A stretch of 64,000 bases of DNA from the NCBI RefSeq assembly GCF_000739085.1, contig NZ_CP009110.1, forward strand, positions 1,178,001 through 1,242,000. Reading direction: 5' to 3'. Below are positions 35,992 to 64,000 of the stretch, piece after piece. Source of the DNA: Amycolatopsis methanolica 239 (GTDB taxonomy: Bacteria > Actinomycetota > Actinomycetes > Mycobacteriales > Pseudonocardiaceae). The notes beneath the pieces were generated by a model. It was not told the origin of the DNA. It was given only the letters and a program-made list of their open reading frames with translations, and made no database searches. The first letter of the stretch is position 1; every line of letters starts with the position of its first letter. Made by a program: the position numbers and the translations under genes.

Positions 35992-36963
35992 ATGGCTTTG
36001 ACCGACGAGGGCATCATCGAGACTCCCGGGATGCTCAGCAGGTGGGTGCGCCTCGGCAGCGGGGCCAAGGCCCACTACATGACCTCGGGGGAAAGCGGTC
36101 CCGCCGTCGTGTTGCTGCACGGCGGCATCATCGGCTCGTCCGGCACGGCCGGGTGGCGGTTCATGGCGCCGTACCTTGGTGCGAACGGGTTCCGCGTTTA
36201 CTGTCCGGACCTCCCCGGCTTCGGGCTCGCCGACACCGCGTCCGAGCACCGGCCGACAGGTCTGGCGTCTTATGTGGATTTCGTCGAGGAATTCGCGACC
36301 GCGTTGTGCCTGGATCGCTTCCACATCGCGGGCAACTCGATGGGCTGTGCGAACACGGTCAATTACGTGTGCGCCCACCCGGAACGGGTGGCCAGCTTCG
36401 CGCTGATCGCCGGACCGGTAGGCGACGTCGCCCCGCATGTGACCCTCGACGCGAAGCAGGAGGGACAACTGTTCACCTTCGACGGCACGCCGGCTTCGAT
36501 GCGCAAGATCATGGAGCGGATCATCTACCGGGGCGAGGCCATCGGTGACGATCTCATCGGCATGCGGACCAATGCCGCACGTGCGCAGGCCGAATCGTAC
36601 AAGCCGATTCCGGTGTCGCTGGTGAAATACGTATCGGGCACGTCCGACCCGGTCGAGGCGGCAAGGCTGACTACCCGGGGCCGGATCGACAAATGCGGTA
36701 TCCCCGGCATTTTCCTCTATGGCCGTCAGGACGTGGTGCTTCCGGTGGAGAAGGGTTATGAGATCGAGGACAGCCTGCCCGGCGTCCAGTTCTTCTATCC
36801 CGACGAATGCGGGCATCAGGGGCAGACCGACCAGCCGGAGATGTTCAACGAGGTGTTTCTCGAGTTCTTCCGGGACGGCATGGTGAGCCGCAAGACCGCG
36901 GAGTGGGCGGGTGTGTCCGATCGGCGGCCTGAGCTTGAGTCGGTGGTGGAACAGCCGCGATGA
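35992..36963 (+). CDS. Alpha/beta hydrolase, meta-cleavage-product hydrolase-like
   Basis: A 323-residue alpha/beta-hydrolase resembling C-C bond hydrolases of aromatic meta-cleavage pathways (BphD/HsaD type). The oxyanion region is VVLLHGGIIGSSGTAGWRF (about 41), the nucleophile Ser lies in IAGNSMGCANTVNYV (about 123), an Asp in LYGRQDVVLPVE (about 245) and the His in DECGHQGQTDQPEMFN (about 273). Start ATG 35992; the longer frame upstream lacks a ribosome site. It overlaps the following SDR gene by 4 nt. In this cluster it could act after the extradiol dioxygenase encoded at 51350, though on another transcript. Confidence 0.82.
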   Translation: MALTDEGIIETPGMLSRWVRLGSGAKAHYMTSGESGPAVVLLHGGIIGSSGTAGWRFMAPYLGANGFRVYCPDLPGFGLADTASEHRPTGLASYVDFVEEFATALCLDRFHIAGNSMGCANTVNYVCAHPERVASFALIAGPVGDVAPHVTLDAKQEGQLFTFDGTPASMRKIMERIIYRGEAIGDDLIGMRTNAARAQAESYKPIPVSLVKYVSGTSDPVEAARLTTRGRIDKCGIPGIFLYGRQDVVLPVEKGYEIEDSLPGVQFFYPDECGHQGQTDQPEMFNEVFLEFFRDGMVSRKTAEWAGVSDRRPELESVVEQPR

Positions 36964-37721
36964 GGTTCGGGGAGGGACGGGCGGCGGTCGTCACCGGCGC
37001 CTGTAGCGACGTCGGCCGGGCGGTTGCCGACCGTCTGGCGGAGGCGGGCGTGGCGCTCGCGCTGGGCGATCTCGATGCCGAGTCGCTCGAGAAGACCGCG
37101 GCCGAGCTGACCCGTCCTGGTGTGCTGTCGCCGGTGACGTGCGCCGGCGATCTATCTACACAGGACTGTGCGAATCGGCTCGCGGGCGCCTGCGTGGAGC
37201 GGTTCGGTCGCGTGGACATCCTTGTCAACAATGCCGGCGGCGGCGTCATCATGCCGACGCTGGCGCACTCGGAAGAAACCCTGCGCACCACCCTCGACCG
37301 CAATCTGTGGACCACCCTGCACTGCACGCTCGCGGTGCTGCCGACGATGAAGGAGCGGCAGTACGGCCGTATCGTCAGTCTTGGTGCGGAGTCTGTCCGC
37401 AATGGACTGGACTGGCACGCGGTCTACAACGCGGCCAAGGGGGGCGTGCACGGCTTCACGACGGGCCTCGCGCGTGAGTTCGCACGCGACGGCATCACGG
37501 TGAACGTGGTGGCGCCCTCGATCATCCGTACCAGGGCCATGCTGTCGTACGATAAGCCGGAGGAGCTGGAATCGATCGCGAAAATCCAAGCGGAGATTCC
37601 GCTGGGGAGGGCGGGCAGCGTCCACGAGGTCGCGTCGATGGTCGAGTACCTCGCCTCCGACGACGCGTCCTACGTCACGGGCCAGGTCGTCAGTGTCAAC
37701 GGTGGTAGTTCGATGCTCTGA
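36960..37721 (+). CDS. Short-chain dehydrogenase/reductase
   Basis: Classical SDR of 253 residues. The cofactor motif is VVTGACSDVGRAVADRL (a TGxxxxxG variant), then VDILVNNAGGGVIMP (about 85-99), catalytic Ser region RIVSLGAES (about 140), YNAAKGG (Tyr about 156, Lys about 160) and the C-terminal VTGQVVSVNGGSSML. NAD(P)-dependent oxidation of an alcohol or reduction of a ketone. Coupled to the upstream hydrolase by an ATGA overlap, so the two act in one pathway. Confidence 0.9.
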   Translation: MRFGEGRAAVVTGACSDVGRAVADRLAEAGVALALGDLDAESLEKTAAELTRPGVLSPVTCAGDLSTQDCANRLAGACVERFGRVDILVNNAGGGVIMPTLAHSEETLRTTLDRNLWTTLHCTLAVLPTMKERQYGRIVSLGAESVRNGLDWHAVYNAAKGGVHGFTTGLAREFARDGITVNVVAPSIIRTRAMLSYDKPEELESIAKIQAEIPLGRAGSVHEVASMVEYLASDDASYVTGQVVSVNGGSSML

Positions 37722-37750
37722 AGCAGAGGCGACACAACGCGATTCCGGAC

Positions 37751-37779
37751 GGGCGGAACGGCGACCAGCCGTGCCGCCC
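37751..37779 (+). terminator. Hairpin after the SDR gene
   Basis: GGGCGGAACGGC and GCCGTGCCGCCC pair around a 5-nt loop, with one internal mismatch, 30 nt after the SDR stop. There is no T-run. A likely GC-rich actinobacterial terminator separating the hydrolase-SDR pair from the IclR gene. Confidence 0.5.
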
Positions 37780-37935: not shown

Positions 37936-38727
37936 ATGATGGTCACTGCAAGCGTGGACGAGACCGGAGGAGACGCGACACGGCAGCTCTCGTCGATCGC
38001 CAAAGCTGCTCGAGTACTGCGCGCATTGGCGTTGTCGGACGAAGGTGACGCCGGGGTGTCGAACCTGGCCGCATTCGCCGAACTGCCCAAGAGCACGACC
38101 CATCGAGTGCTGGTCGAACTCATTCGCGAGGGCCTGGTGGCGCGCAACCAGCAGCAGAAGTACCGCCTGGGCAAGAGCTGGTTCGAGCTGCAGGCCGCGT
38201 TGAGCTGCTCCGAGTGGGTACGGCTGGTCGAGCAGGCCAAGGCGCCGCTGGCGAGCCTTTTCGAGCGGACCGGCGCCACCGTGCACTTCGGTGTGCTCAG
38301 CGACGAGAAGATCATGTATCTGGAGAAGCTGACTGCGAGAGGCGGCACGAGCGTGCCCACCCGGGTCGGCGCCCAGATGCCGGCGACGTGCACAGCGCTG
38401 GGAAAGGCGTTGCTGGCCTACAGTGATCGAGAGGTCATCCAGTCCGTCCTGTCGAAGCCGCTTCCGGTCGTCTCCGGGCGGTCCGTGGCGCAGCCCCGGC
38501 TGCTGCTGAGCCAGTTGGTCCAGGCTCGCAAGACGGGGCTCTCGTTCGATGTCGAGGAATGTCAGTTAGGAGTCTTCTGTGTGGCCACACCGGTCTTTCG
38601 CAACGGGAGGGCCGTCGCGGCGGTCTCGCTGACGCGGGTGGGCAGCGGTGGGCTCACTGCGGCCGATCCGGTCGAGGTCCGGCGGGCGGCGGGCGAGATC
38701 AGCAAGTGGATCTCCACGACCGGCTAG
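37936..38727 (+). CDS. IclR-family transcriptional regulator
   Basis: A 263-residue IclR-family protein. The winged helix-turn-helix SIAKAARVLRALAL...SNLAAFAELPKSTTHRVLVEL spans about residues 20-65 and the effector domain about 85-255 (GAQMPATCTALGKALLAY, FDVEECQLGVFCVATPVF). It stands alone between the hydrolase-SDR pair and the convergent ferredoxin. It probably controls one of the neighbouring catabolic units. The ATG at 37936 is preferred over TTG 37930 because GGAG lies about 10 nt upstream; 37939 is also possible. Confidence 0.87.
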   Translation: MMVTASVDETGGDATRQLSSIAKAARVLRALALSDEGDAGVSNLAAFAELPKSTTHRVLVELIREGLVARNQQQKYRLGKSWFELQAALSCSEWVRLVEQAKAPLASLFERTGATVHFGVLSDEKIMYLEKLTARGGTSVPTRVGAQMPATCTALGKALLAYSDREVIQSVLSKPLPVVSGRSVAQPRLLLSQLVQARKTGLSFDVEECQLGVFCVATPVFRNGRAVAAVSLTRVGSGGLTAADPVEVRRAAGEISKWISTTG

Positions 38728-38793: not shown

Positions 38794-39138
38794 TCAGTCG
38801 TTCGCCGGGTGACCGGCGACCAGCGGGGTGTCGACGCCGAGCGGGCCGGTGATCGCCGCGCCACCAGGCGCGCCGATCGCCGTGTCCCTTCCCGGCAGGG
38901 GCGTGTCGAAGAAGCGCGCGTTGTCCTCGCCGAGTCGCAGCCGCGCCGGGTCGTCGGTATCGCCTTCGAGCGTGATCGCCGCGACCGGGCACACTGCTTC
39001 ACAGGCGCCGCAGTCGATGCATTCGACCGGGTTGATGTACAGCTTGCGCTTGCCTTCGTAGATGCAGTCGACGGGACATTCCTCGAGGCAGGACTTGTCC
39101 ATGTAATCGATGCACTCCGGCCCGATGAAGTAGGGCAT
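38794..39138 (-). CDS. FdxA-type 7Fe/8Fe ferredoxin
   Basis: A 114-residue ferredoxin. The N-terminal half has eight cysteines (9, 17, 21, 25, 40, 43, 46, 50) in the pattern SCLEECPVDCIYEG and CIDCGACEAVCPVAAI, fitting two clusters ([3Fe-4S]/[4Fe-4S] or two [4Fe-4S]). The C-terminal tail is as in mycobacterial FdxA. It is the last gene of the leftward operon, directly after a ferredoxin-NADP reductase gene, and is a plausible electron donor for the P450 or Rieske oxygenase encoded on the rightward operon, which brings no ferredoxin of its own. Confidence 0.92.
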   Translation of the reverse strand: MPYFIGPECIDYMDKSCLEECPVDCIYEGKRKLYINPVECIDCGACEAVCPVAAITLEGDTDDPARLRLGEDNARFFDTPLPGRDTAIGAPGGAAITGPLGVDTPLVAGHPAND

Positions 39139-39169: not shown

Positions 39170-40207
39170 TCACCGGCCCGCGGCCACGCGTTGCTGTGTG
39201 GGATCGGTAGAATGGCCGGGGAAGAGCTTCCGGCCGGGATCGATGTGGATGGCCGCGTGGTTCACGGCCAGCGCGGCTTCGCCGAACCCGACGGCGATCA
39301 GGCGCACCTTGCCGTCGAACTCGGTGATGTCGCCGGCCGCGAAGACGCCCGGCTGGCGGGTGCGCATCGCCGAGTCGACGATGATGTGCCGGTTGTGTGC
39401 CAGTTCGAGGCCCCAGTCACGCAGCGGGCCCAGATTCGCCGTGAAGCCGAGTGCGGCGACGAGCCGCTGGCACGGCAATGAGCGCACACCGGCCGCGCCC
39501 GCCTCCTCGATCTCCACGGCCTCGATCCAGCCGTTTCCGGAGACGCGTTTGACCTCGGCGTTGGTGATGATCGGGACGCCGAGGTCGCGGACTGCGGCGA
39601 CGGTCGCCTCGTGCGCGCGGAAGGTGTCGCGCCGGTGGACGATGGTGACGGACCGGGCGAGGGGGTGCAGCGTCACCGCCCAATCGAAGGCGCTGTCGCC
39701 GCCGCCCACGATCACCACGTCGGCATCGGCGTAATCGCCCGGTTCCGGTACGAAGTAGGCGAGGCCGCGCTCCTCGAACTCCCAGCCCGCGGGCAGCCGC
39801 CGGGGTGTGAACGTGCCGATGCCGCCGGTGATGACGATCGCCTTGGCGACGATCCGCAGTCCCCGGGAGGTGGTGACGACCAGGTCCTCCGGCGTCCCGT
39901 CGCCGGTGGGACGCCGCTCCAGTTGCTTGGCCTGATGTCCCAGCACATAAACCGGCTCGAAGTGGTCGGCCTGTGCCTGCAGCCGCGCGATCAGGTCCCG
40001 GCCCTTGATCGCCGGAAACCCAGCGATATCGAGCAGCTCCTTTTCCGGATACAGCGCGGCGACCTGACCGCCTACTTCGGACAGTGAGTCGACCACGGCG
40101 ACCCGTAGGCCACGAAAACCCGCGTAATAGGCGCCGAACAGGCCGACCGGGCCCGCGCCGACGATGAGCAGATCGCAGTTGATAGCCGCCGGATCTCGCG
40201 TGTCCAC
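39170..40207 (-). CDS. Ferredoxin-NADP+ reductase, thioredoxin-reductase-like type
   Basis: A 345-residue two-dinucleotide-domain flavoprotein of the TrxR-like FNR group. The FAD motif is LLIVGAGPVGLFGAYYAG (about 14-31), the NADPH motif DVVIVGGGDSAFDWAVTL (about 162-179), followed by GVFAAGDITEFDGKVRLIAVG near the C-terminus. The redox-active CxxC of thioredoxin reductases is absent at the expected place, as in FNRs. Reduces the ferredoxin encoded 31 nt downstream; 16 nt separate it from the acyl-CoA dehydrogenase upstream. Confidence 0.9.
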   Translation of the reverse strand: MDTRDPAAINCDLLIVGAGPVGLFGAYYAGFRGLRVAVVDSLSEVGGQVAALYPEKELLDIAGFPAIKGRDLIARLQAQADHFEPVYVLGHQAKQLERRPTGDGTPEDLVVTTSRGLRIVAKAIVITGGIGTFTPRRLPAGWEFEERGLAYFVPEPGDYADADVVIVGGGDSAFDWAVTLHPLARSVTIVHRRDTFRAHEATVAAVRDLGVPIITNAEVKRVSGNGWIEAVEIEEAGAAGVRSLPCQRLVAALGFTANLGPLRDWGLELAHNRHIIVDSAMRTRQPGVFAAGDITEFDGKVRLIAVGFGEAALAVNHAAIHIDPGRKLFPGHSTDPTQQRVAAGR

Positions 40208-40223: not shown

Positions 40224-41429
40224 TCACAGCCCGCGCGGCCCGTGGTGTTGCAGCTGCCTGCTCACGGTGAGCTTCTGGATGTTGCCCGACCCTTCCCAGA
40301 TGTCCATGATCTTGATGTCGCGGTACCACTTTTCGACGAGATGGTCCTTGCTGTACCCGTCCGCGCCCATCAGCAGCAGAGTGCGCGCGCACACCTGTTC
40401 GGCGATGGGGCAGGTGTACGCCTTGGCCGCCGAGGATTCCTTCGCGTTGTCGCGCCCCTGGTCCTGCAGCCAGGCGGCCCTGCCGATCAGCAGGCGGCCC
40501 CGGTCGAGCGCGGCGTTCATCCGGCGCAGCTCGTCGTCCACCCGGCCCCACCGCCGCGCGGTGAAGCCGTCACGATGCTCATCGAGGTACTCGCGGGCGT
40601 AGTCGTGTGCGGCCTGCGCGATGCCGAGCGCCAGGGAGGTGGCATGCGGCCTCGTCGAATTGAGCGTCTGCATCGCGGTGCGGAAACCGTCCTCACGAGC
40701 GGGGTCACCGAGGCAGTGATTGGCGGGCAGCACGACGTTCTCCAGCGTCAGCTGTGACGTGACCATGCTGCGGACCCCGAGTTTTTCTTCGTTGGCCCGG
40801 GGAATCGACAAACCGGGATGGTGCCGCGGGACCACGAACGCCCGGATGCCGCGGTGCCCCAACGACCTGTCCACGGTCGCGAAGACGACGATGAAGTCGG
40901 CCAGGTATCCGTTGCTGCAGAAGATCTTCGTGCCGTTCAGCACCCAGTTGTCGCCGTCGCGCACGGCGGAGGTCGTCAACGCGATCGCGTCGGATCCGCA
41001 ATTCGGCTCCGTCAATGCGAACCCGGTGCCCCGGTACTCGCCCCTGGCGATGCCACCGCTCCACCTGTCGATCTGCTCGTCGGTGCCGAGCAGGTCCACG
41101 ACCCGCGCACCGATTCCGGCTCCCTTCAACAGCAGCACGAGGCTGATGTCGCCATAGGCAGCCAGTTCGCTGACCCGAACGCCGATGGTGCTGCTGCCGT
41201 CGCGCTCACTCAGCGCGTAATCCCGGTCCACCCCGAAATCGACCGCGACACCGAGCAGTGGGCTGGCGTCGAGCGGGCAGGTCTTCATCGCCCTGGTGGC
41301 GAGGTGGTCAGGCACACTGTGGGCGTCGTCCGATTCGCGTGCGATCGCCCGGCCTTCGGCCAGCGCCCAGTCCCGCACGTCGGACAGCAGAGCTCGCGCT
41401 CCGGGATTGAGATCGAAGCTGACCGTCAT
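40224..41429 (-). CDS. Acyl-CoA dehydrogenase, catalytic partner of pair A
   Basis: A 401-residue acyl-CoA dehydrogenase. The FAD/substrate motifs are GFALTEPNCGSDAIALTT (about 134-151) and WVLNGTKIFCSNGYLADF; the catalytic Glu region is IMDIWEGSGNIQKLTVSR near residues 377-394. It is next to a second, Glu-less dehydrogenase (41469-42608), and such pairs form alpha2beta2 heterotetramers in actinobacterial steroid degradation (FadE26-FadE27 type). Its N-terminus (SFDLNPGARALLSDVRDWAL) closely resembles that of the protein encoded at 47721, so the two pairs look like duplicates. Confidence 0.9.
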   Translation of the reverse strand: MTVSFDLNPGARALLSDVRDWALAEGRAIARESDDAHSVPDHLATRAMKTCPLDASPLLGVAVDFGVDRDYALSERDGSSTIGVRVSELAAYGDISLVLLLKGAGIGARVVDLLGTDEQIDRWSGGIARGEYRGTGFALTEPNCGSDAIALTTSAVRDGDNWVLNGTKIFCSNGYLADFIVVFATVDRSLGHRGIRAFVVPRHHPGLSIPRANEEKLGVRSMVTSQLTLENVVLPANHCLGDPAREDGFRTAMQTLNSTRPHATSLALGIAQAAHDYAREYLDEHRDGFTARRWGRVDDELRRMNAALDRGRLLIGRAAWLQDQGRDNAKESSAAKAYTCPIAEQVCARTLLLMGADGYSKDHLVEKWYRDIKIMDIWEGSGNIQKLTVSRQLQHHGPRGL

Positions 41430-41468
41430 GGACAGCGCACCTCCTTGTTCCGTGAACTTGCCGGTTGG

Positions 41469-42608
41469 TCAGAGCACACCGCAGTCGCTCTCCAGCGGGT
41501 CGAAGTCGAGTGCGGCCAGGGTCGCCGCCGCGCGATACCACTGCTCGACGGGGTGGTCCTGGATGAACCCGTGGCCGCCGAGGGTGTTGATGCCGATCCT
41601 GGTGGCTTCCATCGCGGCGCGCTGGCAACGGGAGATCGCCTCCGCGGTGCTGGTCGCAATGGCGACGTCGTCCGCCGAGGAGCCGATCGTCTCGCTGGCG
41701 CGCCAAAGCTGGAGGCGGGCCGCGTCGATCTCACTGTCGGTCTCGACGAGCGGGAACGCCACACCCTGGTATTGGGCGATCGGGTGGCCGAACGCTTCGC
41801 GAGTGTTCGCGTACTCCACGGCGTACGCGAGCGCCGCCCGTGCGGTGCCGAGCAGGACGGCGCCCACACCCAATCGCAACGCGGCGATGGCGCGGTGCGT
41901 GCGAGTGCTGTCCGAGCCGTGGCTGGACAGCCGTGCCGTCTCTGGCACGCGCACCTCGCGCAGCTCGACACAACCGGTCTTGACCGCGTCGAGGCCCAGT
42001 TTCCCGGTGACCGCGTCGTCTCGGGCGACTTCCAGCCCTGTACATCGCGCGGGCTCGACGGCGAAGACGGCCAGCTGGTCGGAATCTGCGTCGGCGGTGA
42101 CCACGACGAGTACGTCCGCTTCGCTCGGCCGGGTCACGCCGACCTTCCGGCCGTTCAGTCGCCATTCCTCGCCCGCGCGTTTCGCGACGGCGCCCAACTC
42201 CTGCGGAGTGCGGCCGAAGCCTTCGAAATAGGCGACTCCGGTGGAGAACGCGGGATCGTGGGCGAACCGGGGCAGATACGCCGTGCGCTGTGCCTCGGTG
42301 CCGAGTTCCTCGATCAGCAACGCGGCCTGGCACGTCGAGACCAGGTCGTACGCGACGCCCGGGTCGCCATAGCCGATTTCTTCGGCGATCAGCAGGCACG
42401 TGCCGGGATCGGGCCTGCCCTGGCCGTCATACTCCGCGTTGACCGGCGCGGTCAGGCCCATCTCATACAGGTCGCGCCACACGCCGGCGAGGTCCGCCGG
42501 TGTCGCCCGCCCTCCGTCGTGCAAGATCGGTCGGATGGCGCGCTCGCCGAGCTGCCGCACCACGTCGGCCAGCGCGGCCTGTTCGTCGGTCAGGACAGGG
42601 TTGAACAT
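41469..42608 (-). CDS. Acyl-CoA dehydrogenase-like partner of pair A (no catalytic Glu)
   Basis: A 379-residue acyl-CoA dehydrogenase homologue. It starts MFNPVLTDEQAALADVVRQL and has the family's helical N-terminal and C-terminal domains (NTREAFGHPIAQYQGVAFPL, GINTLGGHGFIQDHPVEQWY). Where partners have a WEGSxNIQ catalytic-Glu motif, this one ends LAALDFDPLESDCGVL. It is therefore probably the non-catalytic subunit of a heteromeric enzyme with the product of 40224-41429, 39 nt downstream. The ATG at 42608 is chosen as the family start. Confidence 0.85.
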   Translation of the reverse strand: MFNPVLTDEQAALADVVRQLGERAIRPILHDGGRATPADLAGVWRDLYEMGLTAPVNAEYDGQGRPDPGTCLLIAEEIGYGDPGVAYDLVSTCQAALLIEELGTEAQRTAYLPRFAHDPAFSTGVAYFEGFGRTPQELGAVAKRAGEEWRLNGRKVGVTRPSEADVLVVVTADADSDQLAVFAVEPARCTGLEVARDDAVTGKLGLDAVKTGCVELREVRVPETARLSSHGSDSTRTHRAIAALRLGVGAVLLGTARAALAYAVEYANTREAFGHPIAQYQGVAFPLVETDSEIDAARLQLWRASETIGSSADDVAIATSTAEAISRCQRAAMEATRIGINTLGGHGFIQDHPVEQWYRAAATLAALDFDPLESDCGVL

Positions 42609-42630: not shown

Positions 42631-43719
42631 TCAGCTACGTGCGGCGCCGATGTGCTCGCGCTGCAGGAAGTCAAGGGCATTGCGGCCGCGGATCGCCGCT
42701 CGGTCGTGCTCGCTGAGTCCGTTCTCCATAGCCAGGTCGGGGCCGGGCCCGTCGAGGGAGAAGAACGGATAATCGGTGCCCAGCACGACGTGATCCGTGC
42801 CGAACCGTTCGGTCAGGAGCGCGTAGTGCCGCGGATCGAAGACGAGCGAATCGACGAAGAGTCGTCGCAGGTCGGCGTCGAGGCGATCGCCGGTCGAGTC
42901 GTCGCCGTCGAGCACCGCGCCGAAGCGCAATCGGGGATATATCCAGGGAAACGACCCGCCGCCATGACACAGGCACACACGAAGGTCGGGCAGTTGTGTC
43001 AGGACGCCTCCGCACACCAGTGCCCGCGCGGCGACCGCGGTGTCGGTGAGCATTCCGATGGAGAACGCGCCGAGCGGATCGGCAGACCGGCCGATGCAAG
43101 GCCCGTCGATCGGATGCACGAGAAGGGGGACGCCGAGTCGCGCCGCGGCGGCGAAGAACGGACGCAACCGCTCGTGGTCCAGCTCGTCGGTACCCACCAC
43201 GGTCCCGATCTCGATGCCGTGCAGGCCAAGCTCCCCGACCACGCGCCGCATCTCCTCGATCGCGAGGTCAGTGTCTTGAAGCGGCACTCCGGCGAAGCCG
43301 ATCAACCGGCCGGCGGATCCGCGCACCGCTTCGGCGATCTCATCGTTCTGAATTCGCGCGAATTCGGCGGCGTCCGGCCCGGACGCCCAGTACGTAAGGG
43401 AAACCGGCACCGGCGAGATGACCTGGACGTCCACGCCGAACCGGTCCATTTCCGATATTCGCTCGGTGATGTCCCAGCAGGCCTGCCGCACTACCCGGAA
43501 GGTGCTGGTCCCGCGGACGATCTCGCCCTGGCCGCCACTGCCCGGCACGAGCCGCGGCCACCGGCTGTCGCCTTTGCTTTCGGCGAACGACGGCAGACCG
43601 GCCGGCATATAGTGCGTGTGCAGGTCCACTACCGGGTTTTCGCTGCAATGATTTCCCGGCCCGCGCCCGGAACCCGGAACCTGTGTGCTGCGCCCTGTAT
43701 TGGCGCCGTCTTGGCCCAT
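42631..43719 (-). CDS. Amidohydrolase-2 family protein (ACMSD-like)
   Basis: A TIM-barrel metal-dependent hydrolase or decarboxylase of the ACMSD / amidohydrolase-2 family. The metal motif VVDLHTHYMPAGLP is near the N-terminus, then LVHPIDGP (about 205), LCHGGGSFPW (about 250) and the Asp in VLGTDYPFF (about 318). Members decarboxylate aromatic or semialdehyde acids or hydrate ring-cleavage products. The start is unclear: ATG 43719 gives 362 residues, while a TTG at 43779 would add 20; neither has a strong ribosome site. It lies downstream of TetR and 22 nt upstream of the dehydrogenase pair. Confidence 0.82.
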   Translation of the reverse strand: MGQDGANTGRSTQVPGSGRGPGNHCSENPVVDLHTHYMPAGLPSFAESKGDSRWPRLVPGSGGQGEIVRGTSTFRVVRQACWDITERISEMDRFGVDVQVISPVPVSLTYWASGPDAAEFARIQNDEIAEAVRGSAGRLIGFAGVPLQDTDLAIEEMRRVVGELGLHGIEIGTVVGTDELDHERLRPFFAAAARLGVPLLVHPIDGPCIGRSADPLGAFSIGMLTDTAVAARALVCGGVLTQLPDLRVCLCHGGGSFPWIYPRLRFGAVLDGDDSTGDRLDADLRRLFVDSLVFDPRHYALLTERFGTDHVVLGTDYPFFSLDGPGPDLAMENGLSEHDRAAIRGRNALDFLQREHIGAARS

Positions 43720-43812: not shown

Positions 43813-44460
43813 TCAGCTCTCGTCGGTGATCCCGGTGTCGACGACGGTAAGGTAGAGGTCGGCCATCCGGTCGGCCATCACGTCGACGAAGCGTTCGTCC
43901 TGTGGGTCCATGCCGAACAGTTGCCGGCATTGGGCGGGCACGCTGAACACCGTGGACGCCGCGCCGAGCAGCGAGTAGTACGCGATCGCCTCCTTTTCGG
44001 AGGCCTGGATGCTTTCGGTGCCCGCCAGTTTGTGAAAGAACTCGATATGCCTGCGGACGTGTTCGTCGGCGAGCCAGCGCGACCGTTCGGTGAGCTCGCC
44101 GCCCTCGAGCATCACCAGCCGGAAGAATTCGGGGTATTTCGCGGCGAAGTGCACGAGAACACGGACGAGGATTCGGCCCCGTTCCTGTTTCGAGACGACG
44201 CGCAGGACGTCCTGGAATCGCGTCATCTCGTCGTGGAACCGGTCCATCAGCCACGAGACGGCGGCTTGCCACAGCTGGTACTTGCTGCCGAAATGATAGG
44301 ACGCCAGGCCACGGTTTACCCCGGCCTCCCGTTCGATTTTCCGCAGCGAGACACCATCGTATCCCATTTTCGAGAACTCCGAAGCGGCCACGACCAGCAT
44401 GCGCTCGCGAGTTGTCGGCTCATCGCCCGTTCTCTCCGCCTCTGTCGTCACATTCCTCAT
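43813..44460 (-). CDS. TetR-family regulator of the divergent catabolic cluster
   Basis: A 215-residue TetR-type regulator. The N-terminal helix-turn-helix ERMLVVAASEFSKMGYDGVSLRKIEREAGVNRGLASYHFGSK lies at about residues 18-60; the remainder is a ligand-binding domain of unknown specificity. The start ATG 44458-44460 shares a base with the stop of the alpha/beta hydrolase upstream (TAATG). Being inside the leftward operon, it is the best candidate for binding the palindrome array at 46362-46547. Confidence 0.87.
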   Translation of the reverse strand: MRNVTTEAERTGDEPTTRERMLVVAASEFSKMGYDGVSLRKIEREAGVNRGLASYHFGSKYQLWQAAVSWLMDRFHDEMTRFQDVLRVVSKQERGRILVRVLVHFAAKYPEFFRLVMLEGGELTERSRWLADEHVRRHIEFFHKLAGTESIQASEKEAIAYYSLLGAASTVFSVPAQCRQLFGMDPQDERFVDVMADRMADLYLTVVDTGITDES

Positions 44461-46288: not shown

Positions 46289-46361
46289 TGGTGACCTCTC
46301 GGCGAAATGAGCGGAGTTCGCCGCATTCAAACCGCGTCCGCGTGCGACTCGCCATGCGAAG

Positions 46362-55979: not shown

Positions 55980-55986
55980 GGACGCC

Positions 55987-57096: not shown

Positions 57097-58535
57097 ACAA
57101 GATCGACAGCCGGTGCCTGATCGACGGCGAACTGGTCGGCGGCGACCGGCGGGGCGACGTCTACAACCCCGCCGACGCGCGTGAGGTGGTCGGTACCTAT
57201 CCGCTGCTCATTCCTGCGGATCTGGACCGGGCGGTCGCCGCCGCGCGGCGCGCCCAGCGTGAATGGCGGCGGCTGCCAGCCGTAGAGCGGGCCGCGATCG
57301 TGCTCGACAGCGTAGCCAAAGTGGACGCCGTGGAGGGTATCGACGAGTTGCTGGTCCGCGAACAGGGCAAGATCTCCTGGGAGGCCACGTTCGAGCTGGG
57401 GTACTATGAGGCGCTCGCCGACGTGTACCACGGGATGGCAGGCGAACTGGACCGTGGCGCCACACTGCTCGACGATTCGCTCGGCGTCACGACGCAGTAT
57501 CGCGACCCGATCGGCGTGGTCGCGGCGATCACGCCGTGGAACTACCCGGTGGGGATCGCGGCGATGAAGGTGGTGCCGGCGCTCGTCGCGGGCAACGCGG
57601 TGATCGTGAAGCCGTCTCCCATCGCACCGCTGGCCGCGCTGGAAACCTTCGCGGCACTCGCCGACCACTTCCCGCCGGGATTGCTGTCCACCGTGACTGG
57701 CACCGACGCGGAGATTTCCGCGAACCTGATGTCACATCCCGGCGTCGGCAAAGTGACGCTTACCGGGTCCACCGCGACCGGCAAGCTCGCGGCCGCGGCT
57801 GCCGCGTCCACGCTCAAGAACGTCACGCTGGAGCTCGGCGGAAACGACGCCGCACTGGTCCTCGACGACCGTCCGGTGGACGAGGAACTATGTGCTTCCC
57901 TGCTGGCGAACGCGTTTCCCACGACCGGCCAGGTGTGCGTGGCCATCAAACGGATCTACGCGCCCCGGAGCAGAGTGGAGGAACTGTGCGAGGGCATGGT
58001 CGCCGAACTGGAGCACGTCGTCGTCGCCGACGGGCTGCACCCTGAGGCGACCATGGGGCCGCTCACCACGGAGCAGCAGCGGACCATCGTGCGTGAGCTG
58101 CTTGCCGGCGCGGAGTCCGCGGGCGCCAAGGTACTGCGCGGCGGCACCATGCTGGGCGACCCGGATCGCGGCTGGTTCCAGCAGCCCGCTGTGGTCGCCG
58201 GATGTCCCGAGGACAACGCGCTGGTGCAGACGGAGCAGTTCGGCCCGGCAATCCCGGTTCAGCCCTATGACGACGTCGAACAGGCCATCGACCTGATCAA
58301 CGCGACCGAGTACGGGCTGACCGCTTCGGTGTGGACGCACGACAAGGAGCGTGCGCAGCACGCCGCGCGCCAGATCGAGGCCGGTACCGTCCACCTGAAC
58401 AGCCACGGATTGTTTGCGATGGACCCGCGGGTTCCCTTTGGCGGGGTCAAACACAGCGGAATCGGCCGGGAGATGGGGATCGAGGGCCTGCGGGCGTTCA
58501 CTGAATCCCATGTCGTGAATTTCCGCGTGGCGTAG
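57093..58535 (+). CDS. NAD(P)-dependent aldehyde dehydrogenase
   Basis: An aldehyde dehydrogenase superfamily protein of 480 residues: GVVAAITPWNYPVGIAAMKV (about 143), TLTGSTATGKLAAAAA, the general base Glu247 in VTLELGGNDAAL, the nucleophile Cys282 in PTTGQVCVAIKRIY, and the C-terminal VPFGGVKHSGIGREMG. It converts the aldehyde from the upstream alcohol dehydrogenase to an acid that the acyl-CoA ligase could activate. GTG start at 57093, overlapping the previous stop. Confidence 0.93.
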   Translation: MNKIDSRCLIDGELVGGDRRGDVYNPADAREVVGTYPLLIPADLDRAVAAARRAQREWRRLPAVERAAIVLDSVAKVDAVEGIDELLVREQGKISWEATFELGYYEALADVYHGMAGELDRGATLLDDSLGVTTQYRDPIGVVAAITPWNYPVGIAAMKVVPALVAGNAVIVKPSPIAPLAALETFAALADHFPPGLLSTVTGTDAEISANLMSHPGVGKVTLTGSTATGKLAAAAAASTLKNVTLELGGNDAALVLDDRPVDEELCASLLANAFPTTGQVCVAIKRIYAPRSRVEELCEGMVAELEHVVVADGLHPEATMGPLTTEQQRTIVRELLAGAESAGAKVLRGGTMLGDPDRGWFQQPAVVAGCPEDNALVQTEQFGPAIPVQPYDDVEQAIDLINATEYGLTASVWTHDKERAQHAARQIEAGTVHLNSHGLFAMDPRVPFGGVKHSGIGREMGIEGLRAFTESHVVNFRVA

Positions 58536-59044: not shown

Positions 59045-59524
59045 TCAGTAGCCGCCGCCGAGCTTGCGGTGGTCCCACGAAGCCGTGCGGTCCACCGTCA
59101 CCACGATGACGACCCGTTTGGCCGCCTGACGTCGCAGCGCCTCGGGCAGCTCCTGCGGTCCGGCCTCGGCCGGTGCGTTGTATTTCCGGTGGATCTGTGC
59201 GCCGATCCGCAGCACCTCCGCCGGATCGTCCACGATCCGTGCCTTTCCGGTGAGCTGCACACCGCGCAGTTCCTGGTATTCCGAGCCCGCCTCGACCAGG
59301 ACAGTGACCGTAGGATCGCGGCGGAGATTGAGCACCTTCTGCGAGCGAGCGAAGGACCACATCGACGGATTTCCGTCGACGATCTCGTACCACATGGGAA
59401 CCAGGTGGATGGTTCGGTCGGACCGGTGTGACGCGACGAGTGCGGTGTGCCCGGCATGGAGGAACTCGGCCACCTCCTCTGGATTCATCGCTGTGCTCGG
59501 TCGACGGTGCGAGCCGGCGGACAT
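59045..59524 (-). CDS. Pyridoxamine 5'-phosphate oxidase / F420-binding split-barrel protein
   Basis: A 159-residue protein of the FMN/F420-binding split-barrel (PPOX) family: TALVASHRSDRTIHLVPMWYEIVDG near residues 30-54, PSMWSFARSQKVLNLRRDPTVTVLVEAG (about 57-84) and ELRGVQLTGKARIVDDPAEV. The family includes F420-dependent reductases and heme-degrading or biliverdin-reducing proteins; the pattern fits the class-I F420-binding group, but the cofactor is not certain. ATG 59524 with AAGGGGA upstream. Divergent from the mce operon across a 190-bp regulatory region. Confidence 0.8.
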   Translation of the reverse strand: MSAGSHRRPSTAMNPEEVAEFLHAGHTALVASHRSDRTIHLVPMWYEIVDGNPSMWSFARSQKVLNLRRDPTVTVLVEAGSEYQELRGVQLTGKARIVDDPAEVLRIGAQIHRKYNAPAEAGPQELPEALRRQAAKRVVIVVTVDRTASWDHRKLGGGY

Positions 59525-59714: not shown

Positions 59715-60587
59715 ATGGGAATAGCCCCGGACGATCGGGTAGCGCCGTCGCCGGCGCTCGGCCTTGGCCCGTACGACGGCCGCGCTTCCCGTGCGATCGG
59801 GTACGTGCCGGGCGTCGCCCGCAGGCCCGTCGTCGAAGCTGGCGGGATGGGACAGCTTTTCGCGAAGATCGTGTGGAGCGCGGTTCGCCATCCGCGCGGG
59901 TACTGGAGCGAGGTGTTCGAGCACCTTCACGTGACCATCAAACGGACCTGGCTGCCGGTCTCCGCCTCGGTTTTCGGCTTTCTCATGGCGTTGTCGGTGC
60001 TCGCGGTCCAGTTCTTCGCGATGGCCGGCGCACAACACCTCTTCGGGCCGACACTGTTCATGTACAGCACCCGGACCTTCACCGTGTGGGTCAATTCGGT
60101 CGTCATGGCCGGTGTCATCGGCGCGGCGCTGACCAGCGATGTGGGTGCTCGAAAAGTACGGGAGGAGCTGGACGCGATGCGGGTGATGGGCATCGACCCG
60201 GTCCGCGACATCGCGGTGCCCAGGGTCGTCGCGCTCACCCTGATCGCGATCCTGCTTTCGGTTCCGTCGCTGCTGGTGACGGCGTTCACCATGCAAATCG
60301 GGGCGAGTTACGTTGCTGGCATCCCCGCAGCGGACTTCTACCAGTCGATTTTCACCCAGGTCTATCCGATCGACATCGTCGCGGTCGTCCTCAACAGCCT
60401 CCTGGTCGGCCTGCTGGTCGGCACGGTGTGCTGCTACAAGGGATTCGCCGCGACCGGCGGTGCGATCGGCCTGGGCCGGGCGGTGAACCAGGCTGTGGTG
60501 GTTTCGTTGCTGGGCGTCTTCGTTCTCCAGTTGACCTATCAGGCGCTTTACTTAGGGCTCTTTCCACACCTGGGCGAGCTCAAATGA
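59715..60587 (+). CDS. MlaE/YrbE-type permease A of an mce transporter
   Basis: A 290-residue integral membrane protein of the MlaE (YrbEA) family, one of two permease subunits of a Mce lipid importer. It has about five hydrophobic helices and the conserved cytoplasmic loop GARKVREELDAMRVMGIDPV (about residues 138-157) that contacts the ATPase. ATG 59715 is preceded by GGGAAGGAG. It starts the mce operon; YrbEB follows with an ATGA overlap. Confidence 0.92.
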   Translation: MGIAPDDRVAPSPALGLGPYDGRASRAIGYVPGVARRPVVEAGGMGQLFAKIVWSAVRHPRGYWSEVFEHLHVTIKRTWLPVSASVFGFLMALSVLAVQFFAMAGAQHLFGPTLFMYSTRTFTVWVNSVVMAGVIGAALTSDVGARKVREELDAMRVMGIDPVRDIAVPRVVALTLIAILLSVPSLLVTAFTMQIGASYVAGIPAADFYQSIFTQVYPIDIVAVVLNSLLVGLLVGTVCCYKGFAATGGAIGLGRAVNQAVVVSLLGVFVLQLTYQALYLGLFPHLGELK

Positions 60588-61447
60588 GCGGCGCGGATTC
60601 CGCCACCACCGAGGTGTTGCCGCCTGCGACGCCCGTTACCCGGCCGAAGACCGCCGCGGCGGAAAACGGATCAGTTCGGCGCTCCTTGGCCGGCGCGGGC
60701 GAAATCGTCGTGTTCTGCGGGCAGGTGATCCGTTCGGTGCCGGCCGCGGTCCGCCTGTACCCGTCGGAAATCATCCGCATCGCGGGCATGTACGTGCGGT
60801 CGAACCTGCTGGTCGTGCTTTCGATGACGCTGATGATCGGGGCACTGATCGGGCTGACGCTGCACTTTCTGTTCGGCAACATCGGCATCGAAAGCTATGT
60901 CGGCGGCGCGCACGCGATCGGCGGTATGCGCGGCGCGACCGAGACGGCCTTCGGCTGGATGTTCGCCGCCAAACTCGGTTGCGGCATCGTCGCGGAACTG
61001 GGCTCGATGCGGATCAGCGAGGAGGTCGACGCACTGGAGGTGATGGGCATCCGGCCCATTCCCTACTTGGCAGGAACCCGGTTCGTGGCCGCGCTGCTCG
61101 TCGTTCCGCTGCTGTGGATCTCCGCGCTGTTCTTCGAGTTCATCGGCGGCTATCTGCTCAACGTCCTCGTGCTCGGCACCACATCGCCAGGCGCGTACAT
61201 CTATTTCCTCTTCCTTTTCCAGAACGGGTACGACTTCACGGTGACCCTCATCTGGGGAACGCTGATCGGGCTGCTCATCGTTCTGGTGTCTTCTTACTAC
61301 GGCCTCACCGCCAAGGGTGGGCCCGTCGGCGTTGGCGACAACACCGCGCGTTCCATGATGGTGAGCATCGTGATCATCAGCATCACCGCGATGATGCTCG
61401 AGCAACTTTTCTGGGGTAGCACACCGAATTCCCCGATCGGGAACTGA
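60584..61447 (+). CDS. MlaE/YrbE-type permease B of an mce transporter
   Basis: The second MlaE-family permease, 287 residues. The soluble N-terminus is followed by about five helices and the coupling loop AELGSMRISEEVDALEVMGI (about residues 140-159). It pairs with YrbEA to form the transmembrane channel through which lipids delivered by Mce proteins pass. 28 nt separate it from the ATPase gene. Confidence 0.92.
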   Translation: MSGADSATTEVLPPATPVTRPKTAAAENGSVRRSLAGAGEIVVFCGQVIRSVPAAVRLYPSEIIRIAGMYVRSNLLVVLSMTLMIGALIGLTLHFLFGNIGIESYVGGAHAIGGMRGATETAFGWMFAAKLGCGIVAELGSMRISEEVDALEVMGIRPIPYLAGTRFVAALLVVPLLWISALFFEFIGGYLLNVLVLGTTSPGAYIYFLFLFQNGYDFTVTLIWGTLIGLLIVLVSSYYGLTAKGGPVGVGDNTARSMMVSIVIISITAMMLEQLFWGSTPNSPIGN

Positions 61448-61475: not shown

Positions 61476-62306
61476 ATGTCGTCCAGTGTTTCGTCGGCCG
61501 GCCCGCGTGGCCCGGCAGGTCTCGCCGAGTTGTCCGCCACGAATGGCGATCGGCACACTATCCGGCTGAAGAACGTGCACAAGACGTTCGGTGGCGGCTC
61601 CCCGGTGCTGGCGGGCCTTTCCGTGGACATCACAGACGATGCGATCACGACCATCCTCGGCCCCTCCGGAACGGGAAAGAGCGTGCTCCTCAAACACATC
61701 GTGGGGCTGCTGGAACCCGACGTCGGGGAGGTCAGCGTGTTCGGGCAGGACATCTGGCGGGTGAGCGAGGTCGATCGTTTCGAGCTCCGCAAACGGTTCG
61801 GCGTCTTGTTCCAGGACGGCGCGCTGTTCGGCTCCATGAACCTTTACGACAATGTCGCGTTTCCCTTGCGCAAGCACACGGACAAGTCCGAGTCGGAAAT
61901 TCGCGAAATCGTGATGACGAATCTCAAGGAGGTCGGGCTCGAGGGCGCGGTGCACAGGGCGCCGAACGAGATCTCCGGTGGCATGCGCAAGCGAGCAGGT
62001 TTCGCGCGGGCACTCGTCATGCGCCCGGATGTGGTGCTGTTCGACGAACCGGACTCGGGGCTCGACCCGGTCCGCACTCGGCTGCTGTGCCAGCTGATCA
62101 CGCAGATGCACGCCGAGCACGGCGGGACCTACATCGTCATCACGCACGACATCGCTAGTGCCCGCACGCTCAGCGACTACGTCGGCGTGCTGTGGCAGGG
62201 AAAGATGGTGCATTACGGCGAGGCGGAGGAGGCGTTCGCCTCCGACAACGCGTTCGTGCGTCAGTTCCTCGCCGGTGACGCCGTCGGCCCCTTGGGAATG
62301 GACTGA
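61476..62306 (+). CDS. Mkl/MlaF-type ATPase of the mce transporter
   Basis: A 276-residue ABC ATPase: Walker A ILGPSGTGKSVLLKHIVG (about 64-81), Q-loop FGVLFQDGALFGSM, signature NEISGGMRKRAGFARAL (about 166), Walker B DVVLFDEPDSGLDP and switch His in VITHDIASARTLSD. GGMRKR in the signature is typical of MlaF/MceG. Carrying the ATPase inside the mce operon differs from mycobacteria, where mceG is unlinked. ATG 61476 is preferred to GTG 61470 by ribosome-site spacing (ATGGAG). Confidence 0.93.
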   Translation: MSSSVSSAGPRGPAGLAELSATNGDRHTIRLKNVHKTFGGGSPVLAGLSVDITDDAITTILGPSGTGKSVLLKHIVGLLEPDVGEVSVFGQDIWRVSEVDRFELRKRFGVLFQDGALFGSMNLYDNVAFPLRKHTDKSESEIREIVMTNLKEVGLEGAVHRAPNEISGGMRKRAGFARALVMRPDVVLFDEPDSGLDPVRTRLLCQLITQMHAEHGGTYIVITHDIASARTLSDYVGVLWQGKMVHYGEAEEAFASDNAFVRQFLAGDAVGPLGMD

Positions 62307-62308
62307 CG

Positions 62309-63538
62309 ATGCGCCGGACGAGATGGCTGATTCTGTCCGTGGTGATGACCCTCGCGCTGGTCGGCGCGGGTTTCGCGGTGTTCGGCCAGAGCGACTACGA
62401 AGTCGAGATCCTGATGCCCAACGCCGACGGCACGTATCCGGGTGGTCAGGTGGTGCTGGCCGGTGAACGAGTGGGGCAGATCCGCGAGGTGCGCGTGGTC
62501 GAGGACCGGGCGCTGGTCAGGGTGGAGGTCGACGCGGACCATGCGCCACTGCGCGCGGGCACCACCGCACGGATAAATTGGCTGTCCGCGATCGGCGCGC
62601 GGGTGCTGGAACTGCTGCCCGGTGGTGCCTCGAATCCTTTGCTGCCCAGCGGAAGCCGCATCGTCTCGGGCAACGAGCGGGTCGAGATCGACGACCTGCT
62701 GGCGACATTGGACAAGCCAACCAGGGATCAGGTCCAGGGATTGGTCGACCAGCTGAACAAGACGCTGGCGCAACGGGAACCCGACGTGCAGGAAACACTG
62801 CGCAGCACCGGCCCGGCCGTCGAAGCGCTGGGCGACGTGATGCGTGCGGTGGGTGACGACGGCCCGGCGATCCGTGAACTCGTCACGCGACTGCACGACG
62901 TGACCGCGCAGCTGGCTGCCCGTGGTCCGGACCTCGGCCAGACGGTTGACAACCTGCACCAGCTGACCTCCGCCGTGGCGAACGAACAGCAGGCGCTGCA
63001 GAACGGTCTTTCGCAGCTGCCCTCGACGGTCGGCCAGGCGAACACGACGCTGCGAAACGTGCCCGGCGCCGTGGACGCGACGGTCCCGTTGCTGAACACC
63101 CTCCGGCCAGCCACGGCACAACTGCCGTCGGTGGCTCGCAATCTCAGCCCGGTGCTCGAGCAGTTGCAGCCGACCGTGGCCGCGCTGCGGCCTGCCCTCG
63201 GCGACGTGCAGTCGTTGCTGCAACAGACGCCCGCGCTGCTGGACAGTGCGCACGGCACCCTGCCCGCCGTGACCGCGGCGATCACCGAACTGCAGCCCGC
63301 GGTGGCGTTCTTGCGGCCTTACGCGCCGGAAATCGCGGGCTGGCTGTCGAACTGGACGGAGATCTTCGCGAACCAGAACAGCGGGAACTACGGCCGCGTT
63401 CTGATTGCGGCGTCGAGCACCAGCGTCAACGACAACCCGGGCCTGCTGCCGCCGGGAATCCGCCAGGACCAGCGGCCCGCGCCCGGTTCTCTGGTCAACC
63501 AACCCTGGGTGGACGCGAACGGGGACGGTATTCGATGA
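62309..63538 (+). CDS. Mce-family lipid-binding protein
   Basis: A 409-residue MCE/MlaD protein. It has an N-terminal signal-anchor (WLILSVVMTLALVGAGFAVF, about residues 6-25), the MCE domain (about 28-110, with GGQVVLAGERVGQIREVRV), and a long helical region with many Leu/Gln/Pro repeats (about 125-330) expected to build the needle-like tunnel across the cell wall. The tail is NPGLLPPGIRQDQRP. First of the usual six mce genes; the next overlaps it (ATGA). Confidence 0.92.
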   Translation: MRRTRWLILSVVMTLALVGAGFAVFGQSDYEVEILMPNADGTYPGGQVVLAGERVGQIREVRVVEDRALVRVEVDADHAPLRAGTTARINWLSAIGARVLELLPGGASNPLLPSGSRIVSGNERVEIDDLLATLDKPTRDQVQGLVDQLNKTLAQREPDVQETLRSTGPAVEALGDVMRAVGDDGPAIRELVTRLHDVTAQLAARGPDLGQTVDNLHQLTSAVANEQQALQNGLSQLPSTVGQANTTLRNVPGAVDATVPLLNTLRPATAQLPSVARNLSPVLEQLQPTVAALRPALGDVQSLLQQTPALLDSAHGTLPAVTAAITELQPAVAFLRPYAPEIAGWLSNWTEIFANQNSGNYGRVLIAASSTSVNDNPGLLPPGIRQDQRPAPGSLVNQPWVDANGDGIR

Positions 63539-64000
63539 AGACGAACAAGGCTCGCCGCGCGGTCGGCGCGTTGGTGACCACGCTGGCGGTCGCCGCGACG
63601 TGTGTCGGCGCCTCACAACCGGACAGCGGAAGCTCCACTGTGGTTGGCTATTTCACCGACGCCAGCCCGCTCGACCCCGGTTCACAGGTCCGCGCGTCCG
63701 GTGTTCAGGTGGGCACCGTCGACAGCATCCAGCTGGACAGTGGCCGCGCCAAGGTCACGATGACGCTCGATCGCGCGGTGCTGCCGTTGCACCGGGACGC
63801 GAAGCTGACCATCAAGCCGGTCAGTCTCCTGGGCGAGCGGTTCATCGACGTGGACGCCGGTTCGCCGACGCAGCCGTATCTCAGCCCGGCGATTGTGCCG
63901 GTCACGCAGACTTCGTCGGCGGTCACGTTGCAACAGGTCATCGACACGTTCGACGACCCCACCTCCACCTCGCTCGCCGTGGTGCTGAGCAGCCTCGGGG
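63535..64000 (+). CDS. Second Mce-family protein, truncated by window end
   Basis: Open from ATG 63535 to the window edge (155 codons). It begins MKTNKARRAVGALVTTLAVA, a signal or anchor segment with a Cys near residue 22, then an MCE domain (VGYFTDASPLDPGSQVRASG, VGTVDSIQLDSGRAKVTMTL, SLLGERFIDVDAG). The Cys does not fit a standard lipobox well. Further mce genes are expected downstream. Confidence 0.88.
   Translation, partial: MKTNKARRAVGALVTTLAVAATCVGASQPDSGSSTVVGYFTDASPLDPGSQVRASGVQVGTVDSIQLDSGRAKVTMTLDRAVLPLHRDAKLTIKPVSLLGERFIDVDAGSPTQPYLSPAIVPVTQTSSAVTLQQVIDTFDDPTSTSLAVVLSSLG

Follow-up and report, generated by a model that had tools for sequence, protein, structure and literature searches.

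Which compound is degraded by the catabolic genes that precede an mce transport operon in Amycolatopsis methanolica 239, and through which ring chemistry? The window, by which we mean the whole stretch of DNA analysed, comprises 64,000 nucleotides (G000:C1:1178001-1242000) of a 7.24 Mb genome in a single contig. A sequence-only reading had placed at positions 35992..64000 a possible system, with a variant extradiol enzyme, that takes up and degrades a hydrophobic ring compound. As a candidate system for a hydrophobic aromatic, distinct from the cholesterol genes, this proposal holds, though not its list of substrates, and Pfam supports each gene type listed, from the mce genes (from 59913) to the amidohydrolase, the sigma factor and the TetR and IclR regulators, the SCP2 match being weak. 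The genes do lie in this interval, but the unit is larger: an island of ~58 kb exceeds it at both ends, with its right edge ~14.5 kb beyond the window end, and the mce operon continues to ~70,054. A match to a characterised pathway was found in part. The gene set follows the logic of p-cumate degradation, but two steps are assigned to unrelated protein families, and the system is therefore not simply the p-cumate pathway. On balance, we favour a real, coherent catabolic island encoding a variant of the p-cumate-type pathway, in which the ring-cleavage enzyme and the decarboxylase have been replaced by unrelated families.

A proposed p-cumate-like order of steps

From the gene content, the family assignments, the catalytic motifs that were checked and the recurrence of the module, we infer a candidate route whose substrate would be a hydrophobic p-alkyl aromatic with a methyl group, either p-cymene or a relative with a longer chain. 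The mce transporter would take up this compound, possibly with the aid of the SCP2-like protein. The P450 and the alcohol and aldehyde dehydrogenases would turn the ring methyl into a carboxylate, in the roles of CymA, CymB and CymC. The Rieske alpha and beta subunits, with the ferredoxin and its reductase, would then dioxygenate the benzoate at C2-C3, and the short-chain dehydrogenase/reductase (SDR) would re-aromatise the ring. The LigB-type enzyme would cut the 2,3-dihydroxy-p-alkylbenzoate between C3 and C4, the ACMSD-type enzyme would strip the carboxylate, and the C-C hydrolase would yield 2-hydroxypenta-2,4-dienoate and a side-chain acid. Finally, the ligase and the paired acyl-CoA dehydrogenases (ACADs) may break down this acid, and chromosomal enzymes encoded at 3.097 Mb may finish the dienoate.

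The textbook p-cumate route runs through the 2,3-diol, ring cleavage, decarboxylation and hydrolysis to isobutyrate and 2-hydroxypentadienoate, and p-cumate degradation is also reported for 'R. sp. strain T104' (pathway passages of PMC5224996). According to the same passages, the cym/cmt pathway of Pseudomonas putida F1 and Paraburkholderia (Burkholderia) xenovorans LB400 has a step order, from methyl oxidation to C-C hydrolysis, identical to that proposed here (PMC5224996). Unlike that pathway, the window carries a LigB-type instead of a type I extradiol enzyme, an ACMSD-type instead of a CmtD-type decarboxylase, a P450 instead of CymA, and another ferredoxin. It adds mce, SCP2, the ACAD pairs and an extracytoplasmic function (ECF) sigma factor, and the island lacks lower-pathway genes. 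The 'R.' of strain T104 we take to be Rhodococcus. Pfam scans covered 40 of the 45 island genes (g22-g66), the remaining five being Mce genes, and found neither an extradiol enzyme of the vicinal oxygen chelate (VOC) family (type I, the CmtC kind) nor a class II aldolase, the family of CmtD.

To follow the module across genomes, we scanned genome contigs for LigB relatives. The 467 stretches obtained (457 of them encoding a LigB relative) were reduced to the best 80, which correspond to 79 distinct loci and thus represent the nearest LigB relatives. Gene content was read with tblastn against labelled references; misses stem partly from contig ends, and the SDR and ligase labels, given at modest identity, possibly include unrelated family members. 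The core was defined as LigB, the ACMSD-type amidohydrolase, Rieske alpha (either type), SDR and the C-C hydrolase (either type). All five genes occur together in 57 of the 79 loci; individually, Rieske alpha was found in 71, the hydrolase in 70, the SDR in 69 and the amidohydrolase in 68, and 33 loci contain at least one 2-hydroxypentadienoate lower-pathway gene. At E<=1e-80, the LigB protein is present in 42 of 390 genomes of the family and 8 of 394 across the class (the window's own counted in both), a scattered distribution, as expected for mobile catabolic genes. Two records bear doubtful titles: L032 (CAJCJE010000488.1), titled Candidatus Melainabacteria, carries an actinobacterial-looking cluster and its title is probably wrong, as genome G011, whose match has identical coordinates, is placed in the window's family, and L092 (CAMDFL010000041.1), a metagenome bin titled Bordetella parapertussis with a 51% LigB relative, is possibly mislabelled.

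Outside the typical arrangement, individual members of the core are exchanged. In Sphingopyxis macrogoltabida, a 49%-identical Rieske subunit is found with a VOC protein, a class II aldolase, an SDR and a hydrolase, and in Pseudosulfitobacter the Rieske pair is accompanied by VOC proteins and an amidohydrolase; no LigB gene is listed in either. LigB relatives stand alongside a class II aldolase on Sphingobium pANTQ-1 and in Streptomyces NBC_01454. The aldolase occurs where no amidohydrolase is listed (Sphingopyxis, Sphingobium, Streptomyces and one of the 79 loci). This swapping of LigB for VOC and of amidohydrolase for class II aldolase supports the ring-cleavage and decarboxylation roles assigned here.

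The assignment of the decarboxylase is further illustrated by the opa pathway. The protein that had been called an amidohydrolase is ACMSD-type (E=4.4e-63), and the ACMSD-like OpaD of Pseudomonas is reported to decarboxylate 3-carboxy-2-hydroxymuconate semialdehyde, the analogous cleavage product of 2,3-dihydroxybenzoate (pathway passages of PMC6362003). The opa (o-phthalate 2,3-dioxygenase) pathway of Pseudomonas sp. PTH10 shares with the window a Rieske enzyme, a BenD-like dehydrogenase, extradiol cleavage of a 2,3-dihydroxybenzoate and an ACMSD-type decarboxylase. It differs in its type I extradiol enzyme, and those passages describe neither methyl oxidation nor mce genes (PMC6362003). The core could accordingly act on a 2,3-dihydroxybenzoate-type intermediate of phthalate or benzoate degradation, with the same order of steps, while the P450 and the ACADs serve another pathway of the island; we regard this as unlikely. 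The BphD/CumD-like hydrolase suggests that the cleavage product is a ketone and not an aldehyde, which would imply that an alkyl or acyl substituent adjoins the cleavage site. Furthermore, methyl-oxidising enzymes adjoin the core in several genera, and p-cumate dioxygenase is the usual Joint Genome Institute (JGI) name of the Rieske relatives.

The Rieske subunit itself gives evidence on both sides. Of 5086 alpha-subunit relatives, the best 120 were compared by name; JGI often calls them p-cumate 2,3-dioxygenase alpha subunit, and those so named share 67-77% identity. Several findings nevertheless weigh against p-cumate-type chemistry. These names are homology-based, and the same 120 relatives include benzoate 1,2-dioxygenase, 2-chlorobenzoate 1,2-dioxygenase and phenylpropionate dioxygenase-like proteins. 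The best NCBIfam model is BenA (277.8 bits, cut-off 781). On Thermus thermophilus plasmids, a 51-52% Rieske relative lies beside genes for catechol 2,3-dioxygenase and 4-hydroxybenzoate 3-monooxygenase, a neighbourhood that suits a benzoate-to-catechol route. The Rieske subunit of Sphingobium pANTQ-1 is just 33% identical and its dehydrogenase is PdxA-like, and the Streptomyces NBC_01454 stretch has no Rieske gene among those listed. The Rieske family thus covers more than one benzoate-type substrate, and the BenA and Thermus matches, with the benzoate dioxygenase names, also speak for the phthalate/benzoate alternative. In addition, none of the 79 loci combines, in a single cluster, a type-A hydrolase with a type-B Rieske protein as the window does, and the literature searched contained no assay of any enzyme from this kind of cluster. 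Type-A hydrolases occur elsewhere with another kind of Rieske enzyme. The released acid may, given this pairing, not be isobutyrate. Metagenome matches on equal-sized contigs (12521 bp) hint at pairs of a type-A hydrolase with the window's Rieske type. One locus, L070 (Rhodococcus ruber IEGM 1391), holds two clusters, with two LigB genes whose neighbours are of differing type within one 21-kb stretch. Taking both sides together, we lean towards p-cumate-type ring chemistry, with methyl-bearing p-alkyl aromatics as the likely general substrate class.

A LigB-type enzyme with glutamine at a presumed ligand position

The LigB protein matches PF02900 in its C-terminal part (53.6 bits) and reaches 42.7 bits with its best NCBIfam model, for which the cut-off is 290. 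A full-length profile comparison indicates MhpB-type homology with 99.9% probability, the LigB protein having long insertions. When the protein is aligned by profile with four others, of MhpB type or related to it, His11, His177, His267 and Glu314 pair with conserved MhpB residues, and Gln95, in a GDDQ motif, aligns with the His of the MhpB PDHY motif, a presumed iron ligand by analogy with protocatechuate 4,5-dioxygenase. Each of the five residues is invariant in all 87 sequences aligned, which come from the window, the 79 loci and 7 plasmid records and include near-duplicates. By this alignment and the presumed ligand roles, the usual two-His-one-Glu iron site is not kept, its second His being Gln in every sequence. 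The window protein thus has the same His11, His177, His267 and Glu314 positions as LigB-superfamily enzymes (protocatechuate 4,5-, gallate and 2,3-dihydroxyphenylpropionate dioxygenases), but differs from them in its Gln at the second presumed ligand and its long insertions. The genome's own MhpB keeps PDHY.

With Gln at position 95, the dioxygenase activity could be altered or absent, which would count against the proposed role. In the strictest form of this view, the LigB protein has lost its second iron ligand and does not cleave the ring, another enzyme doing so. The replacement of His in all aligned sequences, not all of them independent, speaks for this, but the other four expected active-site residues are invariant, no other ring-cleavage family was found in the 40 island genes scanned, and the LigB protein occupies the place of the VOC protein in Sphingopyxis. 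We consider a non-cleaving LigB protein very unlikely.

The class seems to be uncharacterised. Among 8000 candidates scored, 3401 are relatives at E<=1e-5, and the names carried by the 120 relatives listed are at most hypothetical protein, catalytic LigB subunit or extradiol/DODA-type dioxygenase. The open-access literature searched yielded no LigB-type p-cumate enzyme, and AromaDeg (2014) places 2,3-dihydroxy-p-cumate under type I substrates and not under LigB substrates, in the substrate passages of PMC4250580. We tentatively propose a widespread LigB class in which a His-Gln-Glu iron site would serve to cleave 2,3-dihydroxy-p-alkylbenzoates, and which would be the key to a mostly overlooked, Mce-fed, P450-initiated, p-cymene-like route in actinobacteria for longer-chain aryl terpenoids or alkylbenzenes.

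Two other extradiol genes were observed in passing. A distant LigB protein on pCAR3 of Novosphingobium sp. KA1 (L118, 541-1479) also has GDDQ and adjoins a Rieske-type ferredoxin, an SDR and a hydrolase; the Gln variant therefore reaches beyond this subfamily. At ~2.50 Mb of the A. methanolica genome (L102), a separate MhpB-type dioxygenase is encoded downstream of a luciferase-like monooxygenase (LLM) family oxidoreductase gene, and its surroundings include an HsaD-like hydrolase match.

Proposed methyl oxidation, uptake and released acid

Enzymes suited to methyl oxidation stand next to the core in other actinobacteria. In R. ruber MSA14, genes for a P450, a reductase, a ferredoxin, an aldehyde dehydrogenase and an alcohol dehydrogenase dependent on N,N-dimethyl-4-nitrosoaniline (NDMA) directly precede the Rieske genes. 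The core of R. pseudokoreensis has as neighbours an alkane 1-monooxygenase and an NDMA-dependent alcohol dehydrogenase, reminiscent of CymA and CymB. In two loci of Pseudonocardia (L039 and L091), the neighbours of the core include a P450 gene and one for an SCP2-like protein.

The mce genes are likewise found with the core elsewhere. In the window, the operon runs past the window end and comprises two YrbE permeases, six Mce proteins and an ATPase. A Mycobacterium paragordonae plasmid carries together mce, LigB, the amidohydrolase, a hydrolase, the Rieske pair, the lower pathway, a ligase, an enoyl-CoA hydratase, an ACAD, a P450 and an alcohol dehydrogenase. In Streptomyces humicola (L022), mce genes lie beside the core. 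In genome G218, of the same genus as the window, LigB, the hydrolase, the Rieske pair, an SDR, a ligase, a P450, an alcohol dehydrogenase, an ECF sigma factor and mce genes fall within 36 kb; no amidohydrolase was detected there, and the P450 is just 32% identical to that of the window. Both the plasmid and the G218 cluster thus share mce, LigB, hydrolase, Rieske pair, ligase, P450 and alcohol dehydrogenase with the window, but they have another P450 and a type-B hydrolase, include lower-pathway gene(s), and showed no ACAD pair of the window's kind in the stretches read. No mce gene was found in stretches of five other relatives read in the same manner. The MlaD domain is matched 43 times in the A. 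methanolica genome, at eight places (~0.64, 1.24, 1.90, 3.33, 4.70, 5.10, 5.50 and 6.27 Mb). The ATPase within the operon was considered as a special feature and rejected, as five other mce clusters in this genome have similar genes nearby.

Further points on the opposing side concern these outer steps. In the fetched flanks, mce genes are found in 10 of the 79 loci, nine of them core-complete, and eight of the ten are mycobacterial with one shared arrangement. A P450 occurs in 14 loci, and a P450 or AlkB together with an alcohol or aldehyde dehydrogenase in five. Close relatives of the window's P450 are limited, among the loci searched, to L068 (53.7%) and L062 (43.9%), the others reaching at most 37%. 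The two ACAD pairs and the genes at 23-35 kb exceed the needs of p-cumate alone. Finally, the island is without 2-hydroxypentadienoate hydratase, aldolase and acetaldehyde dehydrogenase; genes for acetaldehyde dehydrogenase and 4-hydroxy-2-oxovalerate aldolase (474.9 bits, cut-off 286) are present at 3.097 Mb of the chromosome, where a neighbouring hydratase gene was not found.

Taken together, the type-A hydrolase, the FadD3-like ligase and the presence of two ACAD pairs would allow the released acid to be longer or branched. A possible, if tentative, alternative that overlaps the favoured p-cumate-type reading is that the same ring chemistry serves a larger aryl terpenoid, alkylbenzene or partly aromatised polycycle and releases a long or cyclic acid. 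Such a substrate would explain mce, SCP2, the ligase and the ACADs, and would be consistent with a hydrolase that differs from the usual partner of the window's Rieske type. Homologues of the ACAD pairs do occur near comparable genes: those of the first pair (40224-42608) adjoin Rieske or SDR genes in L055, L063, L076 and L084 and lie ~12 kb from LigB in L096, and those of the second (46603-48977) are near LigB in L068. At E<=1e-60, the first member of the second pair was found in 1 of 297 genomes of the family, the window's own. However, none of these genes fixes the substrate, and mce also adjoins cores with the ordinary type-B hydrolase.

The resemblance of mce, SCP2, P450, FadD3-like ligase and paired ACADs to cholesterol genes also raises the question of a steroid system, to which we give almost no weight. 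As the sequence-only reading had stated, the steroid hallmark set is not visible: the Pfam results contain no VOC gene, the family of HsaC, and a single Rieske alpha gene with its beta partner, not a two-Rieske-gene set, although KshA, KstD and HsaA-C were not sought with models of their own. The hydrolase scores 86 bits with the HsaD model (cut-off 400), whereas a full-scoring HsaD (508.8 bits) is encoded at 4.98 Mb. The cholesterol-type reading was set aside because of this HsaD elsewhere and an island lacking a VOC gene or an HsaD-grade hydrolase.

Other substrates were considered and set aside. For resin acids (diterpenoids), bile acids and polyketides, which had been suggested earlier and are no longer leading candidates, no specific gene was found, and the step order matches the p-cymene/p-cumate pathway instead; an aryl terpenoid with the same ring chemistry was kept. 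Anthraquinone was raised by the LigB relative on pANTQ-1, but the gene assignments in PMC9836352 link other genes to anthraquinone, and by position the cluster is not among them. Mycolicibacterium sp. CH28 (L062), presented as a potential diisopropyl ether degrader in a passage of PMC6742793, shares with the window the core genes, the ligase (57%), the IclR (62%) and the TetR (38%) regulators; no chemical link to the ether was seen.

The island and its genes

A simple Markov gene caller was applied to 107 kb, the window plus a further 43 kb outside it, and several start codons are uncertain. The G+C content is 0.673 from just past the tRNA-Ala gene to ~78,500, against 0.727 and 0.732 in the flanks. 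Mean G+C content at third codon positions is 0.851 for 45 island genes and 0.931 for 39 flanking genes (Mann-Whitney p=1e-14; genes shorter than 100 aa and border genes g21 and g67 excluded). A truncated ACAD gene lies at the left edge. No direct repeat of at least 15 bases was found between the island edges in the stretches compared, nor a copy of the tRNA-Ala gene of at least 14 bases elsewhere in the 107 kb; 'island' is therefore a statement on composition. It was probably acquired horizontally. Debris resembling insertion sequences was seen at 20-23 kb by eye only, and five open reading frames there have no Pfam match.

Two divergent gene runs meet near 46.3-46.6 kb (Table 1). The plus-strand run (46603-58535) extends from the second ACAD pair through the sigma factor, ligase, LigB, Rieske, P450, SCP2-like and alcohol dehydrogenase genes to the aldehyde dehydrogenase. 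The minus-strand run (45.4 to 38.8 kb) lies behind a decayed CoA-ligase gene and holds a hydrolase, TetR, the ACMSD-type amidohydrolase, the first ACAD pair, the reductase and the ferredoxin. The earlier list thus needs two adjustments: of the C-C hydrolase-like proteins, the first is BphD/HsaD-like but the second fits enol-lactonase models better, and the one ligase listed is joined by a ligase remnant. The genes at 23-35 kb match the island in composition, and no tie to the pathway was found. Among them, the hydantoinase B/A-type pair (30493-34768) is closest to caprolactamase models, far below the cut-off, and also matches acetophenone/acetone carboxylases; near a thiolase, a CoA-transferase and a ligase, it could form a ketone carboxylation unit.

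Table 1. Features of the island, with positions counted from the first letter of the window.
Feature	Position	Strand	Remarks
tRNA-Ala(GGC)	20029..20103	+	low-GC island starts directly after
Accessory genes: LLM oxidoreductase, CoA ligase, class III CoA-transferase, thiolase, ACAD, TetR, hydantoinase B/A-type pair	23104..34768	-	
C-C (meta-cleavage product) hydrolase, type A	35992..36963	+	nucleophile motif GNSMG; BphD/HsaD-like
SDR, presumed cis-dihydrodiol dehydrogenase	36960..37721	+	4-base overlap with hydrolase gene; motifs TGACSDVG (Asp for one Gly of the usual TGxxxGxG) and YNAAK
IclR-type regulator	38026..38727	+	open frame from 37930; CH28 counterpart lies beside the LigB cluster
Ferredoxin	38794..39138	-	FdxA_Actino 126.4 bits, cut-off 125
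FAD-dependent pyridine-nucleotide reductase, presumed ferredoxin reductase	39170..40207	-	
ACAD, first pair, member 1	40224..41429	-	
ACAD, first pair, member 2	41469..42608	-	
ACMSD-type amidohydrolase, presumed ring-cleavage-product decarboxylase	42631..43629	-	DLHTH motif
TetR-type regulator	43813..44367	-	start uncertain
Second alpha/beta hydrolase, enol-lactonase-like	44460..45365	-	GHSLG
AMP-forming CoA ligase remnant	45382..46290 (upstream end approximate)	-	N- and C-terminal pieces in different frames
ACAD, second pair, member 1	46603..47712	+	
ACAD, second pair, member 2	47721..48977	+	
ECF sigma factor	49012..49644	+	40% match beside LigB/mce cluster of genome G218
FadD3-like AMP-forming CoA ligase	49641..51239	+	565.5 bits, under cut-off 657
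LigB-superfamily extradiol dioxygenase	51350..52411	+	Gln95 at presumed iron-ligand position
Rieske dioxygenase alpha, p-cumate 2,3-dioxygenase-like by relatives' names	52421..53725	+	
Rieske dioxygenase beta	53722..54252	+	
Cytochrome P450, presumed aryl-methyl (or side-chain) hydroxylase	54320..55510	+	
SCP2-like protein	55560..55979	+	weak Pfam match: E=1.2e-4, 22.8 bits, cut-off 21.3
Zinc alcohol dehydrogenase, NDMA-dependent-like (under model cut-off)	55987..57096	+	gene-caller start 55999
Aldehyde dehydrogenase	57093..58535	+	
PNPOx-fold protein	59045..59488	-	
YrbE/MlaE permease A	59913..60587	+	
YrbE/MlaE permease B	60686..61447	+	
mce-operon ABC ATPase	61575..62306	+	
First Mce protein	62309..63538	+	Mce4_CUP1, MlaD
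Second Mce protein	63535..64000, continues past window	+	then four more Mce genes and an MMPL gene outside

If the proposed route is correct, it would locate the ring-cleavage and decarboxylation steps of actinobacterial p-cumate-type clusters and would assign a function to a large LigB subfamily. It would also predict an iron site outside the two-His-one-Glu rule. To our knowledge, the substrates known for Mce transporters are steroids and fatty acids, and these transporters would then gain a substrate class beyond both.

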